In this document: piece after piece, positions 1 to 53,526 of the stretch
How positions within the stretch are numbered: the stretch's first letter is position 1
Layout of the letters: every line of letters begins with the position of its first letter
IMG/VR virus record: IMGVR_UViG_3300034158_000023
Location: 124,001 to 188,000 of that record
DNA: 64,000 bases
Source: a virus
Direction: 5' to 3' (one strand)
Translations under genes and position numbers: made by a program
The notes under the pieces: generated by a model
The model's database searches: none
Told to the model about the DNA's origin: nothing
What the model saw: the letters and a program-made list of their open reading frames with translations, nothing else

Positions 1-819
1 GTACAGATGACTAGAAACTTTGGTTGTGCTGATAGACACATACGCGAATTCCAAATGAAGAACGAATTCTTGTTTAAGTTCTTCTCGTTGACCACGATGG
101 CTAAACATTATTTTGCGGCTAAGCACACCTGTGAAGGTATCGTGTATGACGTACCAGACTGGGAGATTAAAGGTTCTAACTTAAAGAACACGAAAGCTAC
201 AGCTGAGTTAATGGAAAGGTCTGATGGTCTCATTAAAGAAATAGCCCACAAAGTTATGGCTGGTGAGAAGATTCAACTGATTCCTATCCTTAAGGAGATT
301 GCAGATAAAGAAACTGAGATCATCAACAGTATCAGGTCAGGTAGTACAGAGTTCTTTGCTACAGGACAGATTAAAGACTTTAACAGTTATAAGCAGAAAG
401 AGAATGCTCCAGCTTGGCATAATTACTTACTGTGGTTAGAAGTCTTTGCTCCTAAGTATGGACAGACTCCTCCTCCAGCTTATACTGCTATTAAGGTTAA
501 CATCGAGTGTGATACTGGCGGTAAGATGAGAGCGTGGTTTGATGACATGCCTGATCAAGAGTTAGCTACTCGTTTCCGTGAGTTTATGCTTAGGTATAAG
601 AAAACTGCAATGACTGCGATTTGGTTACCTTCTGATCACGTTGGTGCTCACGGTATGCCAGATGAAATCATGATGGTTGTAAACGTACGTAAGATGATTA
701 TCGGAATGATGAAGAGCTACTACTTGATCTTAGAGTCTCTAGGGTTCCATATCCTTAACTCTAACGATACAAGATTGATCTCTGATGACTTAGCTGGGTT
801 TACTAAGAAAGCGGCATAA
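1..819 (+). CDS. Family B DNA polymerase, C-terminal piece (5' end cut by window edge)
   Basis: The reading frame is open from base 1, so the first Met at base 7 is probably internal and the gene starts upstream of the window. What is visible resembles the region after polymerase motif C of family B DNA polymerases: MAKHYFAAKH looks like the conserved (L/M)AKKRYA element, and EIKGSNLKNTKA looks like the KG.(E/D).(K/R)(S/R) element that opens the thumb. The remaining ~200 residues would form the thumb. The catalytic DTD of motif C is not in the visible part. The exonuclease and motif A are in a separate minus-strand gene at 32.2-34.0 kb, so the enzyme is assembled from at least two genes. The stop codon lies inside a GGCATAA box leading directly into a palindromic terminator. 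Confidence 0.72.
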   Translation, partial: VQMTRNFGCADRHIREFQMKNEFLFKFFSLTTMAKHYFAAKHTCEGIVYDVPDWEIKGSNLKNTKATAELMERSDGLIKEIAHKVMAGEKIQLIPILKEIADKETEIINSIRSGSTEFFATGQIKDFNSYKQKENAPAWHNYLLWLEVFAPKYGQTPPPAYTAIKVNIECDTGGKMRAWFDDMPDQELATRFREFMLRYKKTAMTAIWLPSDHVGAHGMPDEIMMVVNVRKMIIGMMKSYYLILESLGFHILNSNDTRLISDDLAGFTKKAA

Positions 820-843: not shown

Positions 844-1908
844 TTATGAAAACAATCTGTTGTAGATGAAGTCCATCTTCATGTTTACTAATGTAGATAG
901 GACAGAATCACTATACCAGTTCTCATTGTTTAGTCGTTTAAAGACACGCTCAAATTCTACTAAGTGTTTGGAGTTCTCTGGGTTAGGTTTACATGTCCCT
1001 AACAGAATCAGATAATCCATAGTAGTTAAGCAGGCCATTGCTTTACCTAACCTAGTCGGTGCAAAGTATGGAGTTTGTGCGTAAGCCAATCCAGTCGTGC
1101 CACTAGGTAAAGGTACAGAACTCAATACGTCTGCCCACTCGTAACTTTGCTCAGTGAACCTGTCTCGCATAGCTGTGAGAACGTCATGAGTAAAGGTCTC
1201 AGATGAGGATAAAGAAAATGGAATACGTTTTAAAGTATCAGCTGGTTTGGGATATGTACCTTCCAGTATTCTTGACAACCTGTTCAACCACGCTACGTCA
1301 TTGTGACTACGTATCATGTTTGGCAATACCCAGTTAGCTATAAACTGTCCAGTTGTTTGTGGGTTATCAGGATAAACTTTAAGTTGATACTGACGCCAGC
1401 AAATAAACATGTACATTAACATTGCTGCATCTATACCGATTACGGAGAAGCTCTCTTCGTTGGTATTAGGAACACCGTTCAACAAAGTGTAAGTGATGTC
1501 AGTTCTACCATGAGAGAAAACTTTTAATGGTTCTAACTCATACCAAGGTTTATTGCTAGTACGATCTAACTCTACGGAAAGTAATACTTCCTCGTAGCCA
1601 TAAAACCATCCTTTGCGAGCAAGTTTAGCGGAATGGATGGCTCCACCAATCTTAAGTGCGTTACATACGCTAGGAGATACGGAATCACAAATATCGAAGA
1701 ACCTTTCTTTATCACCTGACCATACCACGTTCATGGTGTTAATTAAAGTAACAAGAGGATGGTTAGATCGAACAGTCTCTCCACTAGCCCTATAATAGTC
1801 AATGGCTCGAATGGTGTTCTCGTTAATCCGTTTTTGCACATAAGACATTTTAGGAAACACTAGCGAGCGACGATTGGCATCTAGCTTAGTTTTAAATAGT
1901 TTAATCAC
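844..1908 (-). CDS. Unknown protein, 354 aa
   Basis: The product is a 354-residue soluble protein with no motif I recognise. The start is a GTG at 1908 with an upstream GAGGAC ribosome-binding sequence at good spacing on the minus strand. It is transcribed divergently from the chimallin gene, with a 0.2-kb shared intergenic region, and ends convergently with the DNA polymerase piece at the palindromic terminator. Composition is ordinary (Leu, Asn, Ser rich, several Trp/Tyr), with no signal peptide or membrane segment. Because it lies next to the nucleus shell gene it may be an early or middle gene, but this is inference from position only. Confidence 0.8.
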   Translation of the reverse strand: MIKLFKTKLDANRRSLVFPKMSYVQKRINENTIRAIDYYRASGETVRSNHPLVTLINTMNVVWSGDKERFFDICDSVSPSVCNALKIGGAIHSAKLARKGWFYGYEEVLLSVELDRTSNKPWYELEPLKVFSHGRTDITYTLLNGVPNTNEESFSVIGIDAAMLMYMFICWRQYQLKVYPDNPQTTGQFIANWVLPNMIRSHNDVAWLNRLSRILEGTYPKPADTLKRIPFSLSSSETFTHDVLTAMRDRFTEQSYEWADVLSSVPLPSGTTGLAYAQTPYFAPTRLGKAMACLTTMDYLILLGTCKPNPENSKHLVEFERVFKRLNNENWYSDSVLSTLVNMKMDFIYNRLFS

Positions 1909-2142
1909 GCTAATGTCCTCGAGGTTTAATGAATCTACATACGATAGCTTTAACCTGTAATAATTTACACAGAGTATCTATTATATGTAACTAAACGAAT
2001 TTTATAATTCGTTATCTAATCCATATGCTGTTATGATCGAAAATTTACGTTTTCGAACTAATCGTGCGTATATATTACCTATGTGAATCGCTACCATAAT
2101 AAAGCGATTTAGTCGACTATTTAATAAAAGGAAATGCGTAAC
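1909..2142. promoter_or_regulatory. Divergent intergenic region with chimallin promoter and leader hairpins
   Basis: This AT-rich spacer separates the minus-strand 354-aa gene from the chimallin gene. It holds two hairpins: AACGAATT/AATTCGTT (1994-2013, 8-bp stem) and CGAAAA/TTTTCG (2038-2055). At 2068-2083 lies GTATATATTACCTATG, which resembles the TATATTAC-type early promoter described for phiKZ. The ribosome-binding leader AATAAAAGGA follows at about 2123-2132. Confidence 0.6.
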
Positions 2143-3972
2143 ATGGCTTATAACGAAAAACCACAATCAAATTCTCACGCAACTGGTTACGGCGCACATG
2201 CACCTAAACCAAATGAAACTCCAGTTGGTGGTGGTAAATCTACTGCGCAAATGTTAAGTGGTATCTCTGCACCAATGGCCCACAATGGCAGCGGTGAAGC
2301 TCTTACCACAGTTTATGAAAACATGAAGTTGGTAATGGCTAAAGAAACTCAGCTGGCCAATTTTAAACTTCTGCCAATTGACGGCCAAGCTAATGGCTTG
2401 AACGTTAGTTCTGTTTTGATGTACGCTAAAAATCCACATGTCGATAACTCTTACGTGGTATACACGTTCCTGGTTGGCGCATCTGTTGGTGTCCTGCGTC
2501 CACGTGTCGCGAAGTTCCAAGAAGGTCAATACGACATTCCTGTTGTACTGTCTGACTTGTACGGTCCTACTTTACGTGAAGCCAACTTTGCAATCTTAGC
2601 CACTGCTATCGGTGCTAACGATGAAACTGCGATGACTGATGCGGGCGGTAATGCGTTCCCACGTAGTATGGCTCTGGATGACATGATCAGTTTCCGTACT
2701 TGTATCTATCATGGCGTTTACGCAATGAACAGTATCTTCGTAGACGATGCTGAAGAGCCACAAGTTTACGACCTGACTGACAAAGCAACAAACGTTTATT
2801 TCCATGGCGATCTAGACTTCCGTCCAGGTATTTTACAAAATGGCGCAGGTTCTCCTGTACGTCGTGATGTAACTATTGCAATCACTGCGGTAGATGGTGT
2901 AAACGGGCAAGACGTTGCTGACCAAACTTACGCAACAAGTCACTTACTGTCAAACTGTTCTGCTTATTTTGACATGGTGTTCACTGGTAAGAAACCACCA
3001 GTGCAAGCGTATTATGGCGGCCCAGTTGTAGAACCAACTCAGATGTTCACTCCTAAGTGCTGCATCGTTGACACTACAACAATGGCTGGTGTTACTCCAG
3101 AACTGCAAATCATGACTTTGGCATCAGCTACCAAGCTGTCAAGCGGTCAGTACACTCAGGCTTGGACTAACATGTTCAATCCAGCAGTAGGTGGCGCAAA
3201 CACCATGCATGACATCAGTGCCTTAGGTATTGAGTTAGGCTTCGGTGCTATCGATACCAATGCTCCTGATTGGAACCCACTTGAGTTCTGTAAGTTGTAT
3301 GTTGACGAACAGTTAGTTTACGCTCTACATGTTGAAGACGTGGGCGATTTAAGCTGGATGCACAAAATGCTGAAAGCTGCTGCGGAAAACAACACGCAAT
3401 CACGTCGCGATGATGCTAAAGCATACATCTGGGATGCCGCGGATAACTTGACTGGTAACAAAACTCTTAGCCAGTTTGTGAAGCCAACTGATGCGATCTG
3501 CTACATTGAAGATGACCGTATTTTCTTAGGTCACTACTTTGATAGCACTGGCGCTAAACGCGACCTGCGTGAAATCGATTACCTATATGCGTTAAAGCAT
3601 TTCGGTACCACTGATTTACCAATGGTAGTTGACTTCGGTTCTACGTTCAACCCAGAAACTGGTCCACTGGACTTACGTCTAGGTAAACGTAAACTGTTGA
3701 TCGAAGCTATGGTTTCTCAAAGCATCGTGATCGAAGGTTATGCAACACCACTGATTCTTGATCCAGTGTGGTTGACTGGCGTACAGAAAGCTATCGCAGC
3801 TGTTGGCGGCGAGCCTAAGTTCGAACACCTGTTACAAGGTCAACATACTCAACAACGCGAGTACAGTGCTCTGCGTCAATACGGTATGCAGGCGATTGCT
3901 CCAGTTGCTCAACAGTACGCTGCAAGCGGTTACTACGGCAATGGTTACTACGATCCACGCTTCGCTCGTTAA
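2143..3972 (+). CDS. chmA: Chimallin-like phage nucleus shell protein
   Basis: The product is ~609 aa, the size of chimallin, the protein that polymerises into the lattice enclosing phage DNA in phiKZ-like infections. The gene has its own strong leader, a strong terminator and codon usage like that of the capsid gene, all signs of heavy expression. The next gene is an RNA polymerase beta-prime N-terminal subunit; in phiKZ, chimallin (gp54) is also followed by that subunit (gp55). The N-terminus (~45 residues, rich in Asn, Gly, Pro, Ser) and the C-terminus (Gln, Tyr, Gly rich) look like flexible tails, as expected for a lattice protein with interlocking tails. I chose the ATG at 2143 because the ATG at 2134 is only 2 bases after AAAGGA. 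The alternative, a tail sheath or other abundant structural protein, cannot be excluded without a search. Confidence 0.72.
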   Translation: MAYNEKPQSNSHATGYGAHAPKPNETPVGGGKSTAQMLSGISAPMAHNGSGEALTTVYENMKLVMAKETQLANFKLLPIDGQANGLNVSSVLMYAKNPHVDNSYVVYTFLVGASVGVLRPRVAKFQEGQYDIPVVLSDLYGPTLREANFAILATAIGANDETAMTDAGGNAFPRSMALDDMISFRTCIYHGVYAMNSIFVDDAEEPQVYDLTDKATNVYFHGDLDFRPGILQNGAGSPVRRDVTIAITAVDGVNGQDVADQTYATSHLLSNCSAYFDMVFTGKKPPVQAYYGGPVVEPTQMFTPKCCIVDTTTMAGVTPELQIMTLASATKLSSGQYTQAWTNMFNPAVGGANTMHDISALGIELGFGAIDTNAPDWNPLEFCKLYVDEQLVYALHVEDVGDLSWMHKMLKAAAENNTQSRRDDAKAYIWDAADNLTGNKTLSQFVKPTDAICYIEDDRIFLGHYFDSTGAKRDLREIDYLYALKHFGTTDLPMVVDFGSTFNPETGPLDLRLGKRKLLIEAMVSQSIVIEGYATPLILDPVWLTGVQKAIAAVGGEPKFEHLLQGQHTQQREYSALRQYGMQAIAPVAQQYAASGYYGNGYYDPRFAR

Positions 3973-3989
3973 TTATTAAGTGTTATAAA

Positions 3990-4019
3990 AAGAAGAGCTT
4001 TCGGGCTCTTCTTTTTTTG
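3990..4019 (+). terminator. Intrinsic terminator after chimallin
   Basis: The hairpin AAGAAGAGC-tttcgg-GCTCTTCTT is followed by a run of T, the classic rho-independent form. Confidence 0.9.
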
Positions 4020-4048
4020 CCCAGTACATTACAATAAAAGGAAGCTGT

Positions 4049-5587
4049 ATGATACCAGATTCATATGGAAAAAAGCGGGTAAATCAGATGTTATCGGATT
4101 TATCTTATTTCCTTGAACAGCTAAGAATGTACAGAGAACAAAACTACTCTGGGATTAATCTCGAGTTCGTAGACTTCAGACGCACGTTAGAGTCTATGGA
4201 TCCACCACCGTTAATCTTAAACGATCGACCGCCATGCGTTACTAAAGAAGACCGCGAAGCTTTAGTGAAGTTAATACGTACGGATGTAGAGGGTGATACT
4301 CTTAACATCGTCCCTCGTTGCGGATGTGGTTTTAGATCTGGGGTAGAGTGGAAAAACACTCGATGTCCAGAATGTACAGACTTAGTTACTGCTATCACTG
4401 AACAACCGATTGAGTCACGCGTATGGTTACGCAGCCCTACTGGTGTAGCTCCACTGATAAACCCAACGTTCTGGTTGATCTTAAGCAGAGCGTTTACGAC
4501 ATCTAAGTTCTCTCCGCTAGAGTGGTTAGCTGATCGTAACTATGTAGGTAAGGACGTTAACACAGCTAAGTTTGCAACTGAGTCTCAGCGTTTAATAGAT
4601 GCTGGTTTTCAGCGGGGTTATAATAACCTGTATGAGCATTTCCCTGAGTACATGGGTAAGCTTATGGCTATGGGTTATACTAACCGAGCAGTATCTGAGA
4701 AGTTACGTACACTGTTAGAAAAATATGGGCATTTAGTTTATTCGGAGTATTTACCTTTACCTAATAAACTGGTGTTCCTAACAGAGAAAACTAGTGTACA
4801 CATCTATGCTGATAGTAACATCAAACATGCTTTAGAAGCAGCGGTGATTATTAGCAGTATCGATGAATCAGATCCCAACCTTACCTTACGTGTAAAAGAA
4901 ACTCGTGCTATTAAAGTGGTAACTTGTTTGTCTGGTTATGCTAGCTTACAATTTGCTAAAACGTTAGGCGGGAAACCTGGGTTATTCCGTAAGGAAATCT
5001 TAGGCTCTCGTATGAAGTGGGCTGGACGTTCTGTAATTGCATCTATCTCTGGTGTGCATGATTACGAAGAACTCCATCTGCCGTGGGGATATGCAATTGG
5101 GTTATTTAAGACTCATCTAACTAACAAACTGAAACGACGCGGTTGGTCGTCAGTGGAAATTGATAACTTCCTAGTTAGACACAGTACTAAGTATCACCCA
5201 TTGTTAGACAAGATATTCGTCGAGTTAATTAAAGAAACAGAGTTACCTGGGATACCTTGTATTCTACAACGAAATCCATCGTTGGCTAGAGGTAGTTCGC
5301 AATGCTTCTTTATTACTAAGATTAAGCATGATGTTGCAGACGTTACTATCGGCATGTCGGTATTGACGTTGGTAGCACCTAACGCGGACTTCGATGGCGA
5401 TAGCTTGAATAACTGGATTGTTCTTGATAAGACAATGTATAAGTATATTTCTCGTTTGGCACCACATACAAACGTGTTTGATTTGAATAGTGTAAGAACC
5501 ACGTCTAACACAGCTAAGTTGCAAACACCAACAACGGAAACTATAGCTAACTATATTAGACATGGTGACGCTAGATTTGTACCTTAG
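4049..5587 (+). CDS. Non-virion RNA polymerase, beta-prime N-terminal subunit
   Basis: This 512-aa protein carries the metal-binding catalytic motif NADFDGD (residues 445-451), which coordinates the active-site Mg2+ in all multisubunit RNA polymerases. Upstream, residues 308-330 (GKPGLFRKEILGSR..., ending GRSVI) match the conserved beta-prime segment GK.GRFR..LLGKR...GRSVI. Near the N-terminus Cys91, 93, 106 and 109 form CxC-x12-CxxC, the same spacing as the zinc-binding domain of E. coli beta-prime. The chain ends ~60 residues after the catalytic loop; the rest of beta-prime is a separate gene at 17.7 kb. By position next to chimallin it corresponds to phiKZ gp55, part of the polymerase that transcribes late genes. 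It has an ACAATAAAAGGA leader. Confidence 0.93.
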   Translation: MIPDSYGKKRVNQMLSDLSYFLEQLRMYREQNYSGINLEFVDFRRTLESMDPPPLILNDRPPCVTKEDREALVKLIRTDVEGDTLNIVPRCGCGFRSGVEWKNTRCPECTDLVTAITEQPIESRVWLRSPTGVAPLINPTFWLILSRAFTTSKFSPLEWLADRNYVGKDVNTAKFATESQRLIDAGFQRGYNNLYEHFPEYMGKLMAMGYTNRAVSEKLRTLLEKYGHLVYSEYLPLPNKLVFLTEKTSVHIYADSNIKHALEAAVIISSIDESDPNLTLRVKETRAIKVVTCLSGYASLQFAKTLGGKPGLFRKEILGSRMKWAGRSVIASISGVHDYEELHLPWGYAIGLFKTHLTNKLKRRGWSSVEIDNFLVRHSTKYHPLLDKIFVELIKETELPGIPCILQRNPSLARGSSQCFFITKIKHDVADVTIGMSVLTLVAPNADFDGDSLNNWIVLDKTMYKYISRLAPHTNVFDLNSVRTTSNTAKLQTPTTETIANYIRHGDARFVP

Positions 5588-5599: not shown

Positions 5600-6229
5600 A
5601 TGGCTAGACTAATTGTTGGCAACGACGCAGTATTTGAAGCAATGCGTCCGGTTAATTTCACTGCACAGTTGTATGACTTTGTAGCGGAACAACAACAACG
5701 GTACCATCAAGCATTTGGTAACGTGCAAAATGCGCTTACTGATAAAATCCATCATTGGCAACAAGCGTTTGTAGCAACTGATGCAGCTCGAGTAGCTGGT
5801 GCAATCATGCGACAAGCGGAATCGTATTTCAACCCTGAAGGTTTCCGGTATTTAACCAACATGTGGGATATACAGAATGCTCCAAGCGATATGATACGTG
5901 GTCTTATGGCAATGCCTGAGGCTCGGAATCTAGCTAACAAGCAAATGTGTAACGCGTATGAAGGTCAGTACTTCGATGCTTTCCCTGCTGCTACTCCACA
6001 AGAACATCGTGATTACAAACTGGTGTATGACGGTATAATTGTAGACTCCGAAGATGATGACATCGATTACACGATGGTGTTATACGGAGATGACTTGGTA
6101 GTTGATGATCCTTATCAGTATCTACAAGTCGAGCAGAAGTATAATGTTATTGAAGCTCGCTCTTTGATGTGTAAAGCTTTAGCTGAGGACATAGACTTTA
6201 CTGATCCTATGAACAATAAGTTAAGGTAA
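5600..6229 (+). CDS. Unknown protein, 209 aa
   Basis: The gene follows the RNAP beta-prime N-terminal gene by 12 bases with a GGAGGAA ribosome-binding site, so the two are probably co-transcribed. The product is soluble. Its first half is Gln and Ala rich and probably helical; its C-terminal half is very acidic around SEDDDID and GDDLVVDD. I recognise no family. A terminator begins right after the stop. Confidence 0.8.
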   Translation: MARLIVGNDAVFEAMRPVNFTAQLYDFVAEQQQRYHQAFGNVQNALTDKIHHWQQAFVATDAARVAGAIMRQAESYFNPEGFRYLTNMWDIQNAPSDMIRGLMAMPEARNLANKQMCNAYEGQYFDAFPAATPQEHRDYKLVYDGIIVDSEDDDIDYTMVLYGDDLVVDDPYQYLQVEQKYNVIEARSLMCKALAEDIDFTDPMNNKLR

Positions 6230-6700: not shown

Positions 6701-7283
6701 GATAGACTTAGACGTATTTAGGCAGAACTCTACGAGAGAGATTCGTCAACTAGAAAACGGTATGCGTAAACTATTAGACGATCTTGATAAAGAAGTTCCC
6801 ACTATACGTGAGAGCTTATTCGTGAATCGTTATTTGCCTCACATGGCTAACTGGAAGATACCTTTCCCTTGGGCAGCTTGGGTAAATGAAATTTCTTTCA
6901 TGTCAGCGAACCCAGTGCATGTTATTGATGACAACGGCAACATAGTCTGTACTGTGCCTCCTCTATGCGACACAGACGGTTTAATGTTAGTTAAATATAC
7001 CAATGAGACTAGCATTAATTATCAAGCCGCTGAAGCGTTCTCTGAAGCTGTCCGGTTACAACACATTGGCCAGCAGGTAATTTACAACAAACTAGGTCCT
7101 TATATCCCTAAGGGTAAACCTAGTACTAAATGGGCTGGCGTTTGGGATTCTGTGTTAGCACGGTATGGCTACCCTACCACAGTCGAAGTCTTGGCCAAGC
7201 TTAATAAATCAAAAAAAACTGGTGCCAGTAATGTTATAGACTTACCTATAACGGATTATTACGAAGATGGCGAGCTTATTTAA
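6693..7283 (+). CDS. Unknown protein, 196 aa
   Basis: The first 35 residues are charged and likely helical (repeated Arg, Glu, Leu), followed by a mixed domain with several Trp and Pro. No motif recognised. It overlaps its upstream neighbour by 8 bases and the downstream nuclease gene by 17 bases, so the four genes from 6.3 to 9.2 kb form a tight operon. That context hints at a DNA-maintenance role, but only by association. Confidence 0.78.
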   Translation: MAEIDLDVFRQNSTREIRQLENGMRKLLDDLDKEVPTIRESLFVNRYLPHMANWKIPFPWAAWVNEISFMSANPVHVIDDNGNIVCTVPPLCDTDGLMLVKYTNETSINYQAAEAFSEAVRLQHIGQQVIYNKLGPYIPKGKPSTKWAGVWDSVLARYGYPTTVEVLAKLNKSKKTGASNVIDLPITDYYEDGELI

Positions 7284-8406
7284 TTTAACTAAGAATCCAG
7301 GTACGTTAAACTTAGCTGTGTTCGGTGATGTTCACTTAGGTAACCGCCGAACACTAGCTCCTGACGTAATCCGTGGGTTAGATTCTTTTTTCCCTAACGA
7401 TCCTGAAACTAAAGCTTTAGACATGATCGTGATAGAGGGAGATTTATTCGATGAAGGGTTAACCTTCTACTCTGAATTCCTAGGTAGAATTCAGAACTGG
7501 ATGTTACGCTTACTAAAGACATGCAAAGATAACGATATTGCTTTGCGTGTATTAGAAGGTACTCCTAGTCACGACATGCATCAGTCTAGACAGTTTGCAG
7601 TGTTGTTAGAAGCTACTAAGTGGGACATCGACTTTAAGTATGTAGAAGACTTAGAGTTAGAAAGACATCCTAAGTTTGGTGATATACTGTATGTACCAGA
7701 CGAATGGGGTGATAGCAATGAACATTGTTACACATCAGCTAGAAATTTGTTATCCTTACATGGATTAACTAAAGTTGACTACTGTATATTCCACGGAGCT
7801 TTCGAGCATCAATTACCACCAATAAAAGGTATTCCTACCCACGACTCAAAAGCGTGGCAGGAATTGGTGACGTATGCCCTCTTTGCTGGACATATCCATC
7901 AGTATTCTAAACATGGTCTTATATTAGCAGCAGGTAGTGCGGATAGGTTTACTCAAGGCGATGAAGCTCCTAAAGGGCACATCAGAGCGTCTTTAAGTCC
8001 TAATGGTAGTAAGTTTACCTTTAGAGAAAATAAGTTCGCTAAGAAGTATCTGACGATCGACTGTAGGCATCTATCAGTGGATGAAGCACTAGAGAAGATT
8101 AGAAAGTCAGTTAAAGTACCTAAGGGTAGTTTCTTAAGACTCAGGTATACAACCACCGATAACCTAATGCCGATGAAGCCTTATTTAAGGGCTGAGTATC
8201 CTGATTACTATTGGGATGACATTATTGAAGATGCTGGAACTGAAAAGCTAGAACAGAAACTGCTACCTGAAACTATTTATCAGAGTGTGCATCTGAACGC
8301 ATCCAACTTAGTCAGCCTTATGCAGAAGCGTATGGAGGCAGCTGGAAGTCCCGCAGAGAAAATAAAAGCTGCTATAGCTAAATTGGAGGCGCTATGTACA
8401 ACCTAG
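7267..8406 (+). CDS. SbcD/Mre11-like metallophosphoesterase nuclease subunit
   Basis: The 379-aa product has the ordered metal-binding motifs of calcineurin-type phosphoesterases: GDVH (motif I), EGDLFDEG (motif II), a variant motif III GTPSHD, HGAFEH (motif IV) and GHIHQYS (motif V). This order and length fit the SbcD/Mre11/T4 gp47 family, which processes DNA ends with an SbcC/Rad50-type ATPase. Motif III is unusual: families normally have GNHD or GNHE, and here the Asn is replaced in G-T-P-S-H-D. The C-terminal ~130 residues would be the capping and partner-binding region. No Rad50-like partner is visible here; the downstream 276-aa gene, overlapping by 13 bases, is not one. Probable role is end processing in replication or recombination. 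Confidence 0.85.
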   Translation: MASLFNLTKNPGTLNLAVFGDVHLGNRRTLAPDVIRGLDSFFPNDPETKALDMIVIEGDLFDEGLTFYSEFLGRIQNWMLRLLKTCKDNDIALRVLEGTPSHDMHQSRQFAVLLEATKWDIDFKYVEDLELERHPKFGDILYVPDEWGDSNEHCYTSARNLLSLHGLTKVDYCIFHGAFEHQLPPIKGIPTHDSKAWQELVTYALFAGHIHQYSKHGLILAAGSADRFTQGDEAPKGHIRASLSPNGSKFTFRENKFAKKYLTIDCRHLSVDEALEKIRKSVKVPKGSFLRLRYTTTDNLMPMKPYLRAEYPDYYWDDIIEDAGTEKLEQKLLPETIYQSVHLNASNLVSLMQKRMEAAGSPAEKIKAAIAKLEALCTT

Positions 8407-9275: not shown

Positions 9276-9992
9276 ATGTCCTCTGGTAACCTGTTAGAAG
9301 AATTTAAAATGCGTTTAAGTGCCGACCCTTTACCTAACTGTAAAGTGTACGGTGATCGCAAAGCTGCTCCACAATTAGCTATTCGCATTAAAGACAACCA
9401 ACCACGTTTCGTTGTGTACACTAACGTGGAAAATGATAAAAACAATGGTATCATTGAAGCACCTATGGATTCTGTGGTGTTCATGACTGTAATGCAAATC
9501 ATCCGTGACGTTGCAGATGGGCGTAGTAAAGGTAATAAAATTCACAACCGTGGACACTACTTTAGTGCTCAAGGTCGTAGTGCAGAGCCAGGCGTATTGT
9601 CGGTTACTAGCATTGGTGTTAACGACAATGGTATCATCTGCATGTCAGTTGTGGCTAAAGGTCGTCCAGAAGCGGTGTTTAAGTTTGGTCCACATGAATG
9701 GCACCCAATGATGGATGCTAGCGGTAACGCTGTTACTGTGCAAGAGCAGTCACGTTTGTTTGCTTTAGGTTATGTTAACCTAATGGAAAAATGTGTAGTC
9801 CGTGTATTAGGCGATGAGTTCATTAATTATACTGACCTTAAAGCCCGTAAAGAAGCTAACCGTGCTGCACGTAGTGGTGGTAATGGTGGTAGCGGTGCTC
9901 GTCAGCAGTATGGTAACAATGGCGGCGGCGGGTATAACGCCAACCCTGCTCCTAAACCAAGTGACTCAGAAGGCGATGGGATGCCTTGGTAA
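9276..9992 (+). CDS. Single-stranded DNA-binding protein-like
   Basis: The 238-aa product has the SSB layout. An N-terminal ~190-residue domain, rich in beta-type sequence, contains aromatic and basic residues. A Gly/Asn/Gln-rich flexible linker follows (about residues 200-225, GGNGGSGARQQYGNNGGGG). It ends in an acidic tip, SDSEGDGMPW. Bacterial SSB ends in DDDIPF, and the acidic stretch plus Pro plus terminal aromatic is the protein-interaction tip. The gene has an AAGGAAA site and follows the nuclease operon. The OB-fold itself cannot be confirmed by eye, so the call rests on architecture and context. Confidence 0.62.
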   Translation: MSSGNLLEEFKMRLSADPLPNCKVYGDRKAAPQLAIRIKDNQPRFVVYTNVENDKNNGIIEAPMDSVVFMTVMQIIRDVADGRSKGNKIHNRGHYFSAQGRSAEPGVLSVTSIGVNDNGIICMSVVAKGRPEAVFKFGPHEWHPMMDASGNAVTVQEQSRLFALGYVNLMEKCVVRVLGDEFINYTDLKARKEANRAARSGGNGGSGARQQYGNNGGGGYNANPAPKPSDSEGDGMPW

Positions 9993-10106: not shown

Positions 10107-11804
10107 ATGGAAATAATTGCTGGTGAGGTAATTGCTGGGAATAAAAAGTCTGTGCGTGTACGACACCAAGGTAACACTATAGACTTCGTAACTGTTAACC
10201 TAACCATCCCGGATCCACGGGAAGATTTCACAGCAGTCGTTGGTGCTATTAATGCTTTCTGGGGAACCCTACCCCTAGAATCGCAAAACAAACTCTTTGA
10301 GCTTTATCAAGAAGCGCATGAGATCATGGAATACGTAGGGGAGCATTTAATCCTACATGAACAGTTATCTAAAGTAAGTTGTGCCATAGTTGACTTCTAT
10401 ACGTACGAGTCTGTGCATTATTACATGCTTAAGAATCGACCTGTACATATCCCAGACGACTTAAAAATGTTCTATGATGAATTAAGCCCTGATAATTCAA
10501 GGACTTATTTACTAGATGATTATTTACATCTGGTAACATTCTCCGTTATTCTGAAATCCATGATTCCTATCTGGGGTGAATACATCCAGATTATTGCAAA
10601 CTCAGTGGGTAGTGAGTTTAAGGAATCACGTGCAGCTGCAATGATTAAATCATCTGCACTGATGCGCAGTAGTCCAGCTAAACGTTTAGAGCGTTATGTA
10701 GAAGCGTATGCTGATACAGATACTTTAAATCTACCTGCTGTGTTAGGTAACATGTCCAGTGTGGATTTCCCAGACTATCTGAGAACTCTAACTATTGTAC
10801 GTCGTTTAGCTACATGTAGACTTCCAGGTAATGCCGCATGTCCGAGTGATGCCCCTACGCATTTAATCCGTGACATCTACGGTTTCCTGAAAAGTAAAGT
10901 AAATAATGCCGATACTTTGTTCACTAAAAGTACTGTGCGTGATAAGTCCCCTGAAAGTGGTGACCGTAGTGGTGGGGATGAAGATAACACTTCTAAGATT
11001 GAATTAATAAAACTAAGGGAGGAAGTAGACAAAGGTGCTGTAGAAAGATATCGGTTAGATGCATTAAACGCTGAATGGTTATATCATCGCATTGACCATA
11101 CTGCGCCGTTAGACTTATTACAGTTGTGCCAAACTGAGATAAGTTCTAAGTTGCATTTAGCAAGTGATGCTTTTCGTATCTGGATAGTACGAAGAGTTAT
11201 ATGTGGTTTCCGTGTTATGAACCCACATCCTGATATCCGCTTAGATTTACTGGAACATGGATTAGCTACTGCGTTTGGCGATACCATGATTAAAAGTAAA
11301 ATCTTTGGTGCAATAGTTACGGATTATTTAGAACTACCTGAACGTATAAGTTTGATGGCTGTTACTCAAGCCTTACTGTTTCATTGGGGGTACCCTGACA
11401 TAGCTGCGTTGATAAGTTCAACTAGAACTGTCCAACCAGTTGGCTCATTCATGAGTGTACAAGTAGCACCAATCGACGGTAAGTTAGTTGAGTTATGTTT
11501 CGAGACTTATCCTTACTTAGCTTTATCTCCAGCAGCTAAAGTTGAATACGGTAAGTTACAAATCGAAGCGCAACGGAGTCAAAAAGGTCAGTCACAGTTC
11601 TATAGGCTTAAAGTGGCTAATAACCCTTTAATCACTAACGTGAATGCCTATGTCTTAGACTTAAATAAATACACTTGGGTATTACACGTACCTCAACAAT
11701 TAAGGTCTAGAATTAATTTCCGTAAGCAAGAAAATAAATGGGTAATACCAGAAGATCTAAAAAATCAATTGGTATCATTAGTACTAAAATCTAAAAGAGG
11801 TTAA
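10107..11804 (+). CDS. Unknown large protein; candidate fifth non-virion RNAP subunit (gp68-like)
   Basis: The 565-aa protein has no motif I can assign. Its position is informative. It starts the run unknown-unknown-unknown-RNAP beta C-part-RNAP beta-prime C-part-helicase, which mirrors phiKZ genes 68 to 75 as I remember them. phiKZ gp68 is the fifth, non-canonical subunit of the non-virion polymerase and has about this length. A Ser/Asp/Gly-rich hinge (around residues 285-300, ESGDRSGGDEDN) separates two mostly helical halves. The gene has an ACAATAAAAGG leader and is tightly spaced (2 bases) before the next gene. Function is inferred from synteny only. Confidence 0.5.
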   Translation: MEIIAGEVIAGNKKSVRVRHQGNTIDFVTVNLTIPDPREDFTAVVGAINAFWGTLPLESQNKLFELYQEAHEIMEYVGEHLILHEQLSKVSCAIVDFYTYESVHYYMLKNRPVHIPDDLKMFYDELSPDNSRTYLLDDYLHLVTFSVILKSMIPIWGEYIQIIANSVGSEFKESRAAAMIKSSALMRSSPAKRLERYVEAYADTDTLNLPAVLGNMSSVDFPDYLRTLTIVRRLATCRLPGNAACPSDAPTHLIRDIYGFLKSKVNNADTLFTKSTVRDKSPESGDRSGGDEDNTSKIELIKLREEVDKGAVERYRLDALNAEWLYHRIDHTAPLDLLQLCQTEISSKLHLASDAFRIWIVRRVICGFRVMNPHPDIRLDLLEHGLATAFGDTMIKSKIFGAIVTDYLELPERISLMAVTQALLFHWGYPDIAALISSTRTVQPVGSFMSVQVAPIDGKLVELCFETYPYLALSPAAKVEYGKLQIEAQRSQKGQSQFYRLKVANNPLITNVNAYVLDLNKYTWVLHVPQQLRSRINFRKQENKWVIPEDLKNQLVSLVLKSKRG

Positions 11805-11806: not shown

Positions 11807-13417
11807 ATGGTAGGTTCTAACGCGCCGATTCAAGTGGTGAAGATGGAATTGTTCCAAGCTGGAACATACAACCCACAATACAGACGGCCGATAGTGATGA
11901 ATGTTAATTTGTCTGACTGTAGCGCTTTCTCTGAAGCGACACAGAACGGTACACAATTCACACCTGGTCGTATAAGTAAAATTGTTAACAACATTGTTGG
12001 TATCTCTGCTACACCTGAACGCAATGCTCACACAACTGATGGTTCTGTACCCATCGTCAACGAATGGAGTAACGAACGTTGCCGCTTTACATTAGAGTTA
12101 TTGGAAACCCTTACAGCTACATCAAGGACTAGACATTTCTACATTGGTTATACTGATGCGGTAGGTTTTAGTCAGCAAGGTACTCGCGATGCTCTAATCG
12201 ACAGACGTATGCAGTTCTACGTCAATGCGGTAGTGTCAGTGATTGAGACTGATGTGTGGCAATCAGGTGCATTAACTACTATTACTCGTGTAAGTAGAAG
12301 TGATACGTACCTGACAGGCCAATGGGCACCTAATGTGCACATAGGGTTTAACGATTACTCTTGTCGCCCGCAAGAAGTAGTTGACCACATGCGAGCAGGT
12401 GTGATTATCAACCAAGCTGGCATACAAGCTCCAATCAACAACACTGGTGCAACTTTCTCTACAATGAAAGTTAAAACCTCGTTAGCGGCTAACTCAAGAC
12501 CTACTCAGTACCTGACGAATATTTTAGAGTGTTACACTAAAGCTTCGGCAGAACAGGAAGGGGGGTATCTCGACGAGCAGGTGCTATTCGAAAATGCTAG
12601 CGGTTATGGTACAGAGTCTCTGTTAAGCCATGAACCTCTGTTCCGTATTATCTCTATCGATCCAGTAATGCAATATGGCTTCTTTACGTTTGGTCAGTTA
12701 GAAGCTGGAGCGCCACACTTAGATAAAATTACCGATGTTCATCAATACGATGGTAGCGGTATGTTTGGTGCTGCGCAAGCTGGTACGACAGAGTTCATGC
12801 ATAATGCTACAATGGAGACACACATAACTTCAATGATTAACACGTCATTGCCAAGTTTGTTGATGGAGTCGTTGTTCCGTTCTATGCATATCCACGTTAG
12901 TAACAATAACGTCACAGCTACCCCGTTCTGTGAGTTAGTACCGCAACCTATATTACCAGGGGAAAACATGCCAAGACCGTCTTACACCACGTTATCTGCT
13001 AACATGGATGTAGGGTTCTGGTGGAGTCGATTCCGTCAAAGATTCTTAGACGAAGTCTTTAATGTGATTACTCAAAACAATATCAATATCGTTGATATGG
13101 TGATTAACATCAGTATCACAGGTGATATTTTAGTTTCATGTAGCGTGAATGGTTCACCTTTAACCGATTATCGAAATCCATGTTTCTGTAATCAGTTAAC
13201 TAGTTCACTAACTACAAACAACCCTGGTATGGTTGATGGCATTGCTAATGACATTTTCAGTCTAACCAACCACGCTGCCAATGTGTTAGGAGAAGCTATG
13301 ACTAACAGTCCATTTGCTCCAGCTAACCCATTTGAAGCACAAGCTGTACCTCTTTACACTCCGTCCAAACACGGTGCGCTAAGTGCCCCCGTTAAAACGT
13401 CCTCTCGTTGGGACTAA
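11807..13417 (+). CDS. Unknown large protein, 536 aa
   Basis: This 536-aa soluble protein, rich in Asn, Thr and Ser, is translated just 2 bases after the preceding gene. The sequence looks like a mix of beta-rich and helical segments, ending in a Pro/Ala-rich tail (~30 residues). No catalytic motif recognised. By order it would equal phiKZ gp69. It may be virion or transcription related; I cannot say which. Confidence 0.8.
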   Translation: MVGSNAPIQVVKMELFQAGTYNPQYRRPIVMNVNLSDCSAFSEATQNGTQFTPGRISKIVNNIVGISATPERNAHTTDGSVPIVNEWSNERCRFTLELLETLTATSRTRHFYIGYTDAVGFSQQGTRDALIDRRMQFYVNAVVSVIETDVWQSGALTTITRVSRSDTYLTGQWAPNVHIGFNDYSCRPQEVVDHMRAGVIINQAGIQAPINNTGATFSTMKVKTSLAANSRPTQYLTNILECYTKASAEQEGGYLDEQVLFENASGYGTESLLSHEPLFRIISIDPVMQYGFFTFGQLEAGAPHLDKITDVHQYDGSGMFGAAQAGTTEFMHNATMETHITSMINTSLPSLLMESLFRSMHIHVSNNNVTATPFCELVPQPILPGENMPRPSYTTLSANMDVGFWWSRFRQRFLDEVFNVITQNNINIVDMVINISITGDILVSCSVNGSPLTDYRNPCFCNQLTSSLTTNNPGMVDGIANDIFSLTNHAANVLGEAMTNSPFAPANPFEAQAVPLYTPSKHGALSAPVKTSSRWD

Positions 13418-13433: not shown

Positions 13434-15122
13434 ATGAACAATCCGAATGTAAATACATTATACACTGGCATCTTAACGGCGCTAGGTTATGAGGTGTTAC
13501 CCTCAGGTATGGTGATGGTTAAAACCGCTGATGCCCAACAGGTGTTACGCATAGATTCAAAAGCTGTGTATATTCCTACACAGGAAGTATTGAAAGACGC
13601 AGATTGGGATAACACTATTGTGTTCCATCCATGTGCTGAGAATGCGATTCGTAATGAATCTGTAATTCAACGCCGTCTGCGTACTTGGGTAAATACCAAT
13701 CTGTATTACAAGATACATTTTGCACTGAATCTGATTATGGAACTCAACGTAGATGTTGATAACCATAAGAACTTCAGTCCAGCCCAACGTGAGATGTTGA
13801 AAGTAATTGCTGAGACTGGCAATGTGACTAAGAAGCATCACAAGAAACTGGAAACTATTCTTAATAAGACAAGTGTAAATGGGGATACCCGTTTAATTAC
13901 TATCTTCATTAAGCGCAATGGGGTGCTGAATAACCAAGAGTATCGTCGTTGTGCTATGGTTAACTTCCCGTTCTTAGAGCCAGGTGATGGTGAAAAGAAA
14001 TCTATCTTTGGTGTTACTTTAACTAACCCAGAGTATAACATTTTGCGCTCGGTGTTTGAGTACGTCTTACCTAATTCATTTGGGGTAGACAATGCTTACA
14101 GTGCTGGTAGCTTAGATACAACTGCGCCTTCATTTGAAGCTTTGATGTTAGCATACGTTAACGTTACTGATCGTTTAAATGAAGTGTTCCGTTTGTTCTA
14201 CGATACTGGTCATGGTGCTGAAGACTTCATCAGTGACTTGAGTTGGGTAGAGTTACTAACCAGTGAAAACTTACTGCGCTTTAAGGCAGCGGTACCCGTT
14301 ACTCCAGGCAATGAAGGTGAAGCTATTACCACACGTACAGGAAACCCTGTAGGTAAAGGTAGTGTACAAACTGTAGCTCCAGTACCAGCAGCGGCGGCAC
14401 CATCGTGGCAGCAAGCTGTACCTAGTAGTGGAGTTCCAGCTCCAGTTGCTGCACCAGCTCCTACTGCTAGTGGTAAACAATCTTGGTCTGATATTAAGAA
14501 AGCTAACAACACCGGAGCACCAGCTGTAAATTTTCCGGTAGCGCCGGGGCCAGTTGGCTACGCTCCAGCGCCGCAACCCCAGTATCAGCCAACACCACAG
14601 TACGCACCGCAACCGCAGTATCAGGCCGCGCCAGCATTGCCGCAATACGCGCAGCCGCAAGCCCATATAACTCATCTGACAGTAAGAAGTGAGTTAAACG
14701 GGATATTAGAACTTGCTGATCCTGCTGGTAACATTGTTTCAATGCCTGTATGGGCATATGACCAAGCAATGGCACCGTTTAGAGCTCCACCGGGACAGCC
14801 ACCTGCGCATCCTGGATATGTTCCACCTGGTAGTAGTCCTGCTAGACAAGCTGTTGCGGCAGCGCGTGCAGCAGCAACATCCTATCAGTACGCATATCCA
14901 CAACCGCAGTACGGCGCACCAGTAGGTTATGCTGCACCACCTCCACAATACGGTGCACCGCAACCCCAGTATGGAGCTCCTCAATATGCTGTGGCTCCGC
15001 CTCAGTATGGAGCACCTGTACCACAATACGGTGCACCACCACCGCAGTATGGAGCTCCTGTGCCAGCTTATGGCGCACCTGCTCCACATTACCAACAACA
15101 CCCTGCCCACCAAAGACGATAA
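13434..15122 (+). CDS. Protein with long PQYGAP-repeat disordered tail, 562 aa
   Basis: Residues 1 to ~285 form an ordinary domain. From ~295 onward the chain is Ala/Pro/Gln/Tyr rich and turns into near-regular repeats of PQYGAP (PQYGAPVGYAAP, PQYGAPQPQYGAP and so on) up to a short basic end. A short ordered insert with HLTVRSELNGILEL interrupts the tail at about residues 415-445. Such tails are intrinsically disordered and may mediate multivalent contacts. The gene lies between an unknown gene and RNAP subunit genes and corresponds by order to phiKZ gp70. Leader TAATAATAAAAGG; a bidirectional terminator follows. Confidence 0.82.
   Translation: MNNPNVNTLYTGILTALGYEVLPSGMVMVKTADAQQVLRIDSKAVYIPTQEVLKDADWDNTIVFHPCAENAIRNESVIQRRLRTWVNTNLYYKIHFALNLIMELNVDVDNHKNFSPAQREMLKVIAETGNVTKKHHKKLETILNKTSVNGDTRLITIFIKRNGVLNNQEYRRCAMVNFPFLEPGDGEKKSIFGVTLTNPEYNILRSVFEYVLPNSFGVDNAYSAGSLDTTAPSFEALMLAYVNVTDRLNEVFRLFYDTGHGAEDFISDLSWVELLTSENLLRFKAAVPVTPGNEGEAITTRTGNPVGKGSVQTVAPVPAAAAPSWQQAVPSSGVPAPVAAPAPTASGKQSWSDIKKANNTGAPAVNFPVAPGPVGYAPAPQPQYQPTPQYAPQPQYQAAPALPQYAQPQAHITHLTVRSELNGILELADPAGNIVSMPVWAYDQAMAPFRAPPGQPPAHPGYVPPGSSPARQAVAAARAAATSYQYAYPQPQYGAPVGYAAPPPQYGAPQPQYGAPQYAVAPPQYGAPVPQYGAPPPQYGAPVPAYGAPAPHYQQHPAHQRR
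14900..15095 (+). repeat. Tandem-like coding repeat (Pro-Gln-Tyr-Gly-Ala-Pro units)
   Basis: About seven imperfect copies of an 18-24 bp unit around CAGTAYGGHGCWCC, encoding PQYGAP. Third-codon positions vary (cag/caa, tat/tac, gga/ggt/ggc), so the repeat is kept at protein level. Confidence 0.85.
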
Positions 15123-15527: not shown

Positions 15528-15559
15528 TTTAGTAAGTACTACAATAAAAGGAGATGTCG

Positions 15560-17647
15560 GTGTCTTATATACAATATAAATACCCAGAACTTACGCAATG
15601 GGTATTGGATATAATAGCAAATTCACCTAACGAACACACCCCTGAAGTTCTAGGGTTAGCCACAGGATTAAATCAATACGCACATTGTAACAGCTCCCCA
15701 CGTATGGTTATGTTGGGATCACATCTATCACAAACACCAGTTATCTATGGTGCTGCTCCTAGACGTATTTATTCCGGTCTGGAAACTAAATACGGGGAAG
15801 GTACTTGGAAGCAGAAGTTAAATGAAGATGCGGTTATTAAGAAAGTAATTCCTAAATACCCAACTGCTGCCAACATGTTTAAATTAAACCCTAGCAGTTA
15901 TGTTATCTATCAAACTAAAGGACAATTAAAAACATTCAACCTGATGCAGTTAGATTTATATCACTCTACGCATCAGTCATTTGGTTATAAGAACGTAATG
16001 GTAAACCACCATCTATTACGGGAAAATCAACCAGTACTAAAAGACACAGTGTTCTCACAAAGTCCTAACATCCGTTTACATGCTGAGTGGGTAATCGGTA
16101 GAGACTTAGTGATTGCAAACATCTCTTTAGATGGGGTAATTGAAGATGGCGTGATTGTCTGTGATGATATCTTAGATGATCTAACCACAGTGCAAGTCGG
16201 TAAACGTAGTGCCTCTAGTGGTAAAGCTTATTACTTGTTAAACACGTATGGCACTAAAACGTTCTTTAAAGGTTTCCCTGATATAGGCGAGCATGTTAGA
16301 GAATGTGGTTTGTTGTTCGCTATGCGTAAGTTTGATTCTGATACAGCTGACATCGATATGGATATTGATAGCATGCAGTATGACGCTGTAGACACAGTAT
16401 TAGACAGATGTGTTTATGCAGTCGCTGGTGCTAAGATTACAGATATTCACATCATGCACTCTCATCTGTATAAAGGTAAGTCGATGAACTGTACTCCAGT
16501 TAACACTGAAGCGCAGATAGTTCGTTACTATGAAGCAGAAGGTAGAGCGTACAAAGCGTTGTTGGATACTGAAGCTGCTTTACGTCGTGAGTTTAAACAC
16601 ATCGAGTTAAGTCCTGGCTTAGAACGTTTGTGTGTAGAAGCTGAAGATTATCATTGGGCACCACATGCTGGGGCGTTAAAACGTACCTATCGTGCTACGC
16701 CGTTAGATGAATGGAATATAGACATCACGTTTGCGCATGACTATAAACCTAACATCGGCAGTAAAATCTCTGGATTACATGGGGATAAATCGGTTATCTG
16801 TGGTATCTGGCCAAGAGCTAACATGCCTACGGATGAATGGGGACGTTCCTCTGATCTCATATCAGCAGGCGGCACAACCATTAACCGGATGAACGTAGGG
16901 CGTTTGATTGAGCAGTATCTAGATGCAAGTGCATGGCATTTTGAAAGACACTTACGTGTATCTAAAGATCCAGAGCGTGACTTTTTAGAGTACTTAGCTT
17001 TAGCTAGTCCTATCTCATACAGCTGGTTGTTAGATTTACCTGAGGAGAAACTGAAAGAACAAGTTGCTCAAGCTCAAGAGTACTTGCGTTATTGTCTACC
17101 TCCTCACAGTCCTAACTTGAATGCCTTATTACCTTACGAGATGCAAAAGAGATTCCCTGTACCTAAGGGACATTTACGATACATCGATCCGCAAGGTAAG
17201 GTTAACATAACCGAAGACAAAATCATGTTGGGCTGTCAACACATAATCGTATCTGAAAAGAACGGTTATGATTGGGCGTCTGTAGCTGATGATGCTAAGT
17301 GTCAAATTTATGGCCCTCCTGCTAAGCTGTCTAATGCTGACAAATATAGTTCTCCTCGTAGACGTCAAACTACAAGGGGTTTAGGAGAAGCTGAATCTCG
17401 CAACCTTAACGCTGTTTGTGGGCCTGTGTTCGCTGCTCGTATCTTAGAGTATCAGAACAACCCGGATGCTGCTAGAGTGATGTCTAGGACGGTACTAACG
17501 CATCCTACACCTACTAACATTGATTGTATTATTAGCGATGCAATAGTGAAGCCTGGATTCTCTAGACCTTCTTTGTTAGCTAACCACATAATCAACGTAG
17601 CTGGTGTGCAGTACAGTACTCGGCGACCACGTAGTGTAGGAGTGTAA
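15560..17647 (+). CDS. Non-virion RNA polymerase, beta C-terminal subunit
   Basis: At residues ~395-460 the protein reads GSKISGLHGDKSVI, then MPTDEWGRSSDLI and NRMNVGRLIEQYL. These match the hallmark beta C-terminal block GDKMAGRHGNKGV...MP...G...D...NP...PSRMNIGQ..E. The lysines of the KxxGxHGxK element contact the active-site nucleotide in cellular enzymes. The N-terminal half of beta is absent and is probably the 536-aa gene at 60.0 kb. The gene corresponds to phiKZ gp71-73. I prefer the GTG at 15560 as start: the ATG at 15554 abuts AAGGAG with no spacing, whereas the GTG has 6 bases. It ends 3 bases before the next RNAP gene. Confidence 0.9.
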   Translation: MSYIQYKYPELTQWVLDIIANSPNEHTPEVLGLATGLNQYAHCNSSPRMVMLGSHLSQTPVIYGAAPRRIYSGLETKYGEGTWKQKLNEDAVIKKVIPKYPTAANMFKLNPSSYVIYQTKGQLKTFNLMQLDLYHSTHQSFGYKNVMVNHHLLRENQPVLKDTVFSQSPNIRLHAEWVIGRDLVIANISLDGVIEDGVIVCDDILDDLTTVQVGKRSASSGKAYYLLNTYGTKTFFKGFPDIGEHVRECGLLFAMRKFDSDTADIDMDIDSMQYDAVDTVLDRCVYAVAGAKITDIHIMHSHLYKGKSMNCTPVNTEAQIVRYYEAEGRAYKALLDTEAALRREFKHIELSPGLERLCVEAEDYHWAPHAGALKRTYRATPLDEWNIDITFAHDYKPNIGSKISGLHGDKSVICGIWPRANMPTDEWGRSSDLISAGGTTINRMNVGRLIEQYLDASAWHFERHLRVSKDPERDFLEYLALASPISYSWLLDLPEEKLKEQVAQAQEYLRYCLPPHSPNLNALLPYEMQKRFPVPKGHLRYIDPQGKVNITEDKIMLGCQHIIVSEKNGYDWASVADDAKCQIYGPPAKLSNADKYSSPRRRQTTRGLGEAESRNLNAVCGPVFAARILEYQNNPDAARVMSRTVLTHPTPTNIDCIISDAIVKPGFSRPSLLANHIINVAGVQYSTRRPRSVGV

Positions 17648-17650: not shown

Positions 17651-19660
17651 ATGGAAGTATTGTTAGCCCGTGATGTCGCAAATATGTCCGAACATGACAT
17701 TTGGACTATATTACCACCTAGATTCATTATGCGGTTTGATGATGGAGATATGGTGGTAGATGATCGACGCACTCAAATGTGTTACTACCTGTGGTGGCCA
17801 CTACGAGATTATCCTGATACCAAGATCTATAAATACCATCACATGGGTGCTGCTGGTTGGACATCTAAGTCAGTTTTGGAACTGAACGATGCAATGTGGT
17901 GGGATTGTTTTGATCAACACGGTAAATCCATCAACCCTGAATTAGGGGCGATGCGTAGTAAGCAGGAGATTAACCGTTTACACAACAGCGTATCTGTTAA
18001 CTTAGGTGCGCATGTGGCCAGTTTAGATATTCTGGATTTTGCTGAAGTAATGATGCATCCAGAGATCAAAGCTATTAACGATCATCTGCAATCGTTAGAT
18101 CAAACGGATTTAAGTGTACTGGTAATGATGGATGTTGAGATTGCTAAAGCTCACGCTGAAGTAACTCGCATTATGATGACCTGTCCTACACTTAAAGACA
18201 ACCGATTAGTTTGTGCTGTGCGTGCTAAGACGTCAGACATAAACCCAGTGTTGCAGATTATCTGTTGTCGTGGTAAGCCTACAGACATCGATAGTACAGT
18301 TTTCACTACTGCTATCGTGCGTGGGTTAGGTCATGGGTTATTCTCTCTTTACGATGTGTTAGCGGAGTCTAGAACTGCTGCTAAGGCACTAGAGTTACAG
18401 AAAGATCCATTAGCTGATACTGAGTACTTTAACCGTCAGATGCAATTGATCTGTGCTACCTTAGCGCATTTAGATGCTTACTGGCAACGCAACGTGGAAG
18501 GTCCTTATGAACTCCACGATTGTGGCACCAAACGTTATATCACTTGGCAAGTAGATAAACAAAACTTCCAAGATTTAGTGGGTAGTTACCGCGTAGATGA
18601 AAACGATCAATTGCACGTTATCCGTAAGGATGATGTACATCTGATTGGTACAGTGATTCAAATACGTAATGGTTTAACTTGTGCACATAAAGAAGAGAAC
18701 CATATATGCGCCGCTTGTTATGGCGAGTTGGAATTCTCTTTACCTGCTGGAACCAACGTAGCACACTTTGCATGTATTGTACTGTGCGCTATTATCTCGC
18801 AGAAAGTGTTATCAGTTAAGCATAACGAAACCTCTGCAACTGTAGCTGGTGCCGAAGTCCCTAGAGAGTATAGAAGACAATTACGTGCGTTGGGTAACTC
18901 TTATGGGTTCTCATTGGACTTAGATTTAAGTACGTCATGCTTGGCGATTAACAAAGATGATGTGCCTAGATTAAGTGATATCTATGAGACTAAGAACATC
19001 CATGATCTCCCCCTACGCAAAATAGGGACTATGCAGGATGTCACCATCATATCGGAAATACCAGGGTTGGGACTAACGTCGTCGTACGTACCAGTACGCT
19101 CAGGAACTACAGGAAGTAGTTTCACTTATGAATTCTTAGAATACATAAAAGCTACTGGGTTTGAGGTTGAACGTGAGACAATCATAATCAACCTTAAAGA
19201 TTGGGATATCATGAAACCAGTGTGGGAAATGTCGCGTAAGCACGCTAACATGCTGGACTTTATGGAAGCTATTAAGAAACTAGTTAAAGTTAGTGATGAC
19301 GATAAAACTACTAAACTCACCATGGACTTGGATGAGGAAGGTAACGTCTCTTTAGCGTTAAGTGGTTTCTATGATTTAGTTAGATCTAAGTTCCCATTTA
19401 ACCTTTCTTTATTAGGGGTTATAATGCGGTCTACTCTAGTAGTAGATAAAGAGCTAGGTGATTATCGAATCCCATGTGGAGATCAGATTGGTCAATTCGA
19501 ACAATTTGGTAAGACCATGGAAAAACGTTCGTTAGGTGGTGGTCTAGCCAACGAACGACATGAGGGGATATTTGTTAACCCTGATTCGTATATACTAACT
19601 GAACGTGGTGGACATCCTTTAGACGAAACTATACAACCAACTATGTCTTATTTCCCTTAG
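17651..19660 (+). CDS. Non-virion RNA polymerase, beta-prime C-terminal subunit
   Basis: The 669-aa product continues where the 4.0-kb beta-prime N-part stops. Residues ~190-293 run VRAKTSDINPVLQIICCRG, then FTTAIVRGLGHGLFSLYDVL and PYELHDCGT. This parallels the beta-prime bridge-helix and trigger-loop region (SGARGS..QI.Q..G.RGLM ... GL...EYF ... DCGT). Residues ~341-360, LTCAHKEENHICAACYGE, match the TC.....GVC..CYG element. An unusual feature is that the usual G(E/A)..G..AAQSIGEPGTQLTMRTFH is strongly diverged. The C-terminal ~200 residues would complete beta-prime. It corresponds to phiKZ gp74 by order. It is translated with the beta C-part. Confidence 0.9.
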   Translation: MEVLLARDVANMSEHDIWTILPPRFIMRFDDGDMVVDDRRTQMCYYLWWPLRDYPDTKIYKYHHMGAAGWTSKSVLELNDAMWWDCFDQHGKSINPELGAMRSKQEINRLHNSVSVNLGAHVASLDILDFAEVMMHPEIKAINDHLQSLDQTDLSVLVMMDVEIAKAHAEVTRIMMTCPTLKDNRLVCAVRAKTSDINPVLQIICCRGKPTDIDSTVFTTAIVRGLGHGLFSLYDVLAESRTAAKALELQKDPLADTEYFNRQMQLICATLAHLDAYWQRNVEGPYELHDCGTKRYITWQVDKQNFQDLVGSYRVDENDQLHVIRKDDVHLIGTVIQIRNGLTCAHKEENHICAACYGELEFSLPAGTNVAHFACIVLCAIISQKVLSVKHNETSATVAGAEVPREYRRQLRALGNSYGFSLDLDLSTSCLAINKDDVPRLSDIYETKNIHDLPLRKIGTMQDVTIISEIPGLGLTSSYVPVRSGTTGSSFTYEFLEYIKATGFEVERETIIINLKDWDIMKPVWEMSRKHANMLDFMEAIKKLVKVSDDDKTTKLTMDLDEEGNVSLALSGFYDLVRSKFPFNLSLLGVIMRSTLVVDKELGDYRIPCGDQIGQFEQFGKTMEKRSLGGGLANERHEGIFVNPDSYILTERGGHPLDETIQPTMSYFP

Positions 19661-53402: not shown

Positions 53403-53410
53403 CATAAACT

Positions 53411-53439: not shown

Positions 53440-53526
53440 GTGACTGGAAAACTTTCTAAATATATATTGTTTTAGTAGTAAGAAAGCATAAAGCTTTCTA
53501 TTCATAAAACAATAAAGGGTATTACC

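Follow-up and report, generated by a model that had tools for sequence, protein, structure and literature searches.

A strongly diverged chimallin gene paired with a non-virion RNA polymerase subunit gene in a probably complete genome of an uncultured member of the Chimalliviridae

Introduction

Chimallin is the protein that builds a nucleus-like shell around the DNA in giant bacterial viruses. Described examples are gp54 of phiKZ, gp105 of 201phi2-1, PhuN of phiPA3 and the chimallin of phage Goslar. In phiKZ, the chimallin gene lies in the order gp50, gp52 (reversed), gp54 and gp55. PhuZ is an accessory component in the Chimalliviridae, present in about two thirds of the members. Early genes are preceded by a motif that reads TATATTAC in phiKZ and TATATTACDWHDGTG in 201phi2-1 (PMC7058600, table), and a further protein, ChmB, has been reported only from Pseudomonas phages (PMC10643120).

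We have analysed a stretch of 64,000 nucleotides, hereafter the window, that corresponds to positions 124001-188000 of a 215,386-base virus record (IMG/VR record IMGVR_UViG_3300034158_000023). An initial annotation had proposed that one of its genes encodes a chimallin-like protein and that the phage would therefore build a protein nucleus. Here, we compare this gene, its neighbours and the remainder of the record with the known systems.

Results

Two adjoining open reading frames are found on the plus strand, at positions 2134-3972 and 4049-5587, with a gap of 76 bases between them (Table 1). The upstream one encodes 612 amino acids when read from its first ATG and 609 amino acids when read from the ATG at 2143, in line with the length of about 610 residues originally given. 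The start at 2143 was preferred because the putative ribosome-binding site AAAGGAA ends 9 bases before this codon and directly abuts the ATG at 2134, and because residue 4 of the 612-residue reading is a near-invariant methionine in the family alignment. The resulting product, ChmA, has a calculated mass of 66.4 kDa and a pI of 5.0.

Family profiles and solved structures gave the same answer about this protein. The Pfam profile PF25677 (Chimallin_Phikzvirus) matched it with 108.4 bits against a cut-off of 27 (E = 3.7e-31, profile positions 58-619 of 627), the PHROG family phrog_4795 (nuclear shell protein) matched with E = 6e-53, and phmmer recovered the solved chimallins 8fne (phiPA3; 2e-18) and 7sqq (1e-14). 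A tblastn search with ChmA reached 115 phage records, the best at ∼25% identity. An AlphaFold2 model built from 53 aligned sequences (mean pLDDT 84.9, pTM 0.83) showed a predicted two-domain chimallin fold. Foldseek returned nine significant PDB matches to this model, all of them chimallin (TM by target length 0.78-0.86), the best being 7sqv (E = 2e-32). With VIA-align, eight chimallin entries aligned to the model with Z scores of 33.6-37.2, headed by 8igg (Z 37.2, rmsd 2.6 over 474 residues), whereas the best unrelated chain was a bacterial toxin (Z 6.3), followed by GNAT acetyltransferases. The middling scores of the latter (Z about 5-6) fit the acetyltransferase-like domain already described in chimallin (PMC9938867). 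The flexible ends that had been predicted for the protein are visible in the model as disordered stretches at residues ∼5-24 and ∼570-612, with pLDDT below 50 at 5-24 and 584-612.

We considered whether the gene might instead encode a virion structural protein, either a tail sheath or a capsid-related protein, that is a neighbour of the polymerase gene by chance. The length of the reading frame would be plausible for a sheath and the gene on its other side matches a structural head family, but none of the families or folds matched by ChmA is that of a sheath or capsid protein, and a separate gene of the window encodes the major capsid protein of phiKZ type. A tail sheath or otherwise unrelated fold, the outcome that would have counted against the initial annotation, is disfavoured by the predicted fold, whose significant PDB matches are all chimallin and which matches nothing else at high score. 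We therefore regard a structural protein at this position as exceedingly improbable.

The downstream reading frame encodes the subunit of 512 residues bearing the NADFDGD motif, whose direct adjacency had been likened to the phiKZ gp54-gp55 pair. This likeness was confirmed: the product matched phiKZ gp55 (1e-63) and Eowyn RpoBC (5e-99), and the genes from the gp50 to the gp55 homologue follow the phiKZ order. IMG/VR was scanned with an alignment of the RNA polymerase (RNAP) beta' N-part and the best 80 loci were examined. A chimallin gene was located upstream of the polymerase gene in 78 of them, in most cases no more than a few hundred bases away; the remaining two lack it because the contig ends ∼400 bases before the polymerase gene.

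Several loci showed features of their own. In the IMG/VR loci L053, L062, L063, L073 and L100 the beta' N-part match is longer than the reading frame, which suggests introns or inserted genes. The chimallin gene of L100 (6040-7231) is in pieces in different frames, probably due to sequence errors. Five further loci (L120, L121, L123, L124 and L125) carry a chimallivirus-like beta' N-part on contigs of 143-286 kb inside bacterial assemblies (Paraburkholderia, Caballeronia, a Rhodoferax MAG and a gammaproteobacterial MAG), and are probably co-sequenced or carried phage genomes.

Table 1. Features of the chmA locus, the rest of the window and the record (window coordinates unless marked as record)
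Feature	Position	Strand	Evidence
Divergent family B DNA polymerase (phiKZ gp50), C-terminal part	1..819	+	PF20286 5e-86
phiKZ gp52 homologue (structural head protein)	844..1908	-	phrog_3938 5e-48; phiKZ 3e-25
Putative early (virion RNAP) promoter TATATTACCTATGTG	2071..2085	+	TATATTAC core at 2071-2078
Ribosome-binding site AAAGGAA for start at 2143	2127..2133	+	sequence
chmA, chimallin nuclear shell protein, 609 aa	2143..3972	+	PF25677, phrog_4795, AlphaFold2 model
Intrinsic terminator between chmA and RNAP gene	3987..4016	+	stem-loop and U-run
Non-virion RNAP (nvRNAP) beta' N-part (phiKZ gp55), NADFDGD motif, 512 aa	4049..5587	+	phrog_2987 1e-135
phiKZ gp59 homologue	5600..6229	+	weak: phiKZ 1e-4, Eowyn 2e-5; phrog_3254 4e-24
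SbcD-like nuclease (phiKZ gp65)	7267..8406	+	phrog_100 5e-44
phiKZ gp67 homologue, ChmC counterpart by gene order	9276..9992	+	phiKZ gp67 1e-20
nvRNAP fifth subunit (phiKZ gp68)	10107..11804	+	phiKZ gp68 5e-32; phrog_3209 5e-84
PicA (phiKZ gp69; phiPA3 gp63), nuclear-shell protein importer	11807..13417	+	phiKZ gp69 1.5e-18; phrog_3141 5e-74
phiKZ gp70 homologue	13434..15122	+	phiKZ gp70 5e-25; phrog_3520 1e-65
nvRNAP beta C-part, single unsplit gene (phiKZ gp71-73)	15554..17647	+	phrog_3295 3e-150
nvRNAP beta' C-part (phiKZ gp74)	17651..19660	+	phrog_3015 1e-140
Virion RNAP (vRNAP) subunit (phiKZ gp80)	27163..28455	+	phrog_2962 1e-120
Major capsid protein (phiKZ gp120)	56722..58887	+	PF25620 1.7e-169
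nvRNAP beta N-part (phiKZ gp123)	60024..61634	+	phrog_2943 5e-130
vRNAP beta-N (phiKZ gp178)	record 52463-56602
PhuZ tubulin	record 116967-117998 (7 kb upstream)		phrog_4733 7e-74

The initial annotation had also attributed features of high expression to the gene. Upstream of the ribosome-binding site we located a putative early promoter, and its extended motif, with at most one mismatch, occurred in the record 11 times on the forward and never on the reverse strand, compared to 2 and 1 times for a reversed-pattern control. Nine of the 11 sites are placed 41-84 bases before a reading frame, so that most sites are followed at this distance by a frame equipped with a ribosome-binding site. The exact TATATTAC was present upstream of 12 out of 62 chimallin genes against 1.1 in shuffles, a comparison that overstates independence because the loci are related by descent. 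By itself TATATTAC was not enriched in the window (6 occurrences vs 4.2 expected), and only the extended motif together with intergenic placement is informative. Taken together, the counts of the extended motif, its placement before reading frames and its recurrence upstream of chimallin genes make it well supported that chmA would be transcribed early by the virion RNAP. A scan for sigma-70 promoters gave nothing above chance, as expected for a phage that has its own polymerases. At the other end of the gene, the stem-loop of the intrinsic terminator has a predicted energy of -15.7 kcal/mol (z = -3.64), equalled in none of 200 shuffles. The codon usage of chmA is the third closest to that of the capsid gene among 47 window genes, a ranking in which the capsid gene itself is included and comes second. 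Promoter motif, ribosome-binding site, terminator and codon rank are thus all in keeping with the expression level that had been claimed. Along the record (1-215386), the extended sites are all on the plus strand and share a common flank just 5' of the motif; they could serve to map the early operons of the phage.

The ends of the record share 127 identical bases, and because of this terminal repeat the 215,386 bases probably represent a complete genome. Over its full length, the window keeps the gene order of phiKZ gp50-gp124 and of Eowyn gp086-gp146. It combines chimallin with core gene blocks in the order conserved in the Chimalliviridae, the comparison covering the collinear blocks of the window out of the family's 72 core genes. 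All nvRNAP subunits (gp55, gp68, gp71-73, gp74 and gp123) and the vRNAP subunit gp80 are encoded in the window, while the terminase, the portal and vRNAP beta-N lie elsewhere in the record. Two multisubunit RNAPs, virion and non-virion, are therefore present, as are PicA and the accessory PhuZ, and each further core gene that was sought was in place. From the gene order beside the nvRNAP fifth subunit, phiKZ gp67 would correspond to phiPA3 gp61 (ChmC), and the product of the gp70 homologue may likewise be the counterpart of the shell-associated phiPA3 gp64. A single sequence-only search of the record with phiKZ gp2, a weak probe for ChmB, gave no match.

Some genes of the window are arranged differently from those of phiKZ. 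The nvRNAP beta C-part is unsplit here and in Eowyn (ORF 65335-67401), and broken into gp71, gp72 and gp73 in phiKZ. A macro-domain protein homologous to phiKZ gp104 is displaced to a position (23369-23809) with the nvRNAP block on one side and the gp77 homologue on the other. In phiKZ the second DNA polymerase-like gene (gp82) is on the plus strand; its homologue here (32221-34068), like that of Eowyn, is on the minus strand.

No chimallin found shares more than about 30% identity with ChmA. A quick maximum-likelihood tree of 64 sequences grouped ChmA with two uncultured IMG/VR contigs, L029 and L053, with an SH-aLRT support of 99. The end branch of ChmA measures 1.48, and because of long branches its exact position is uncertain. 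Single-protein scans of IMG/VR with the window ChmA and with the RNAP subunit gave no close relative. Relatives on genome contigs came from Burkholderia-group and other proteobacterial assemblies and are distant from this phage.

This divergence, with its long branch, and the lack of a ChmB match in the phiKZ gp2 search would suit a phage that retains a true chimallin homologue and has lost the closed nucleus, the shell protein having a reduced or altered role. The record, however, has kept PicA, the gp67/ChmC counterpart, gp70 and PhuZ; both tails of ChmA are retained in an intact frame; and codon usage and promoter point to heavy early expression. A loss of the nucleus consequently appears very unlikely.

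Discussion

Family profiles, matches to solved chimallins, predicted fold, conserved position and core genes agree in supporting the chimallin-like reading of the gene, and we found no evidence contradicting it. We conclude that the gene is almost certainly chmA and that it belongs to an uncultured member of the Chimalliviridae whose genome is probably complete. The assignment is based on the chimallin profile and fold, on the block formed by chimallin and the nvRNAP beta' N-part, and on the hallmark genes of the record, namely PicA, the gp67/ChmC counterpart, both multisubunit RNAPs, PhuZ, the phiKZ-type capsid, the portal and the terminase. Membership in this family suggests that the phage builds a nucleus.

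By analogy with its relatives, in which all the steps are known (PMC10299810, PMC11087766, PMC12908238, PMC13282480), the virion RNAP, injected with the DNA, would use the TATATTAC promoter at 2071 for early transcription of chmA, and ChmA would be made in bulk. Linked by their tails, ChmA tetramers would form a closed two-dimensional lattice that surrounds the phage DNA; PicA and its partners would let chosen proteins into the shell, and mRNA would exit through it. The gene next to chmA encodes the first subunit of the nvRNAP, which would work inside the shell, and PhuZ filaments would position the shell. The early promoter motif would connect the injected polymerase with early production of the shell in a simple way that can be tested.

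With an identity of no more than about 30% to any chimallin found and a long end branch, ChmA could form a lattice whose geometry differs from that of known chimallins. That the diverged ChmA and the absence of a detectable ChmB reflect a shell with another lattice geometry or pore organisation is an unlikely proposition; if true, capsid docking and mRNA export would proceed through parts not yet described.

The phage represents a new, distant lineage of the Chimalliviridae from uncultured material, without a cultured member. Its novelty is limited to the lineage: the biology of the chimallin shell was already known and the known mechanism is unchanged by our findings. What is added is an apparently complete genome from a deeply branching part of the family without a cultured relative, and with it a wider range of sequences for comparing the shell protein, the import factor and the early promoter.

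Compared to known systems, the nearest in the tree are L029 (3300040801_001811) and L053 (3300006805_000048), both with the chimallin gene directly upstream of the RNAP beta' N-part, as here; their chimallins share 28-30% identity with the window ChmA, and L053 differs in having an interrupted beta' N-part gene. Klebsiella phage vB_KvM-Eowyn (Eowynvirus; NC_070650, PP187_gp088) is alike in chimallin family, flanking gene order and upstream early motif, whereas its chimallin is only about 25% identical. The chimallins of phiKZ, 201phi2-1, phiPA3 and Goslar are more distant (about 18-22% identity), and in contrast to these phages no ChmB homologue was detected here by the single phiKZ gp2 search. 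Nevertheless, those that have been solved have the same fold as the ChmA model (Z 34-37), the disordered ends are shared, and phiKZ gp54 adjoins a gp55-type RNAP gene just as the window ChmA does.
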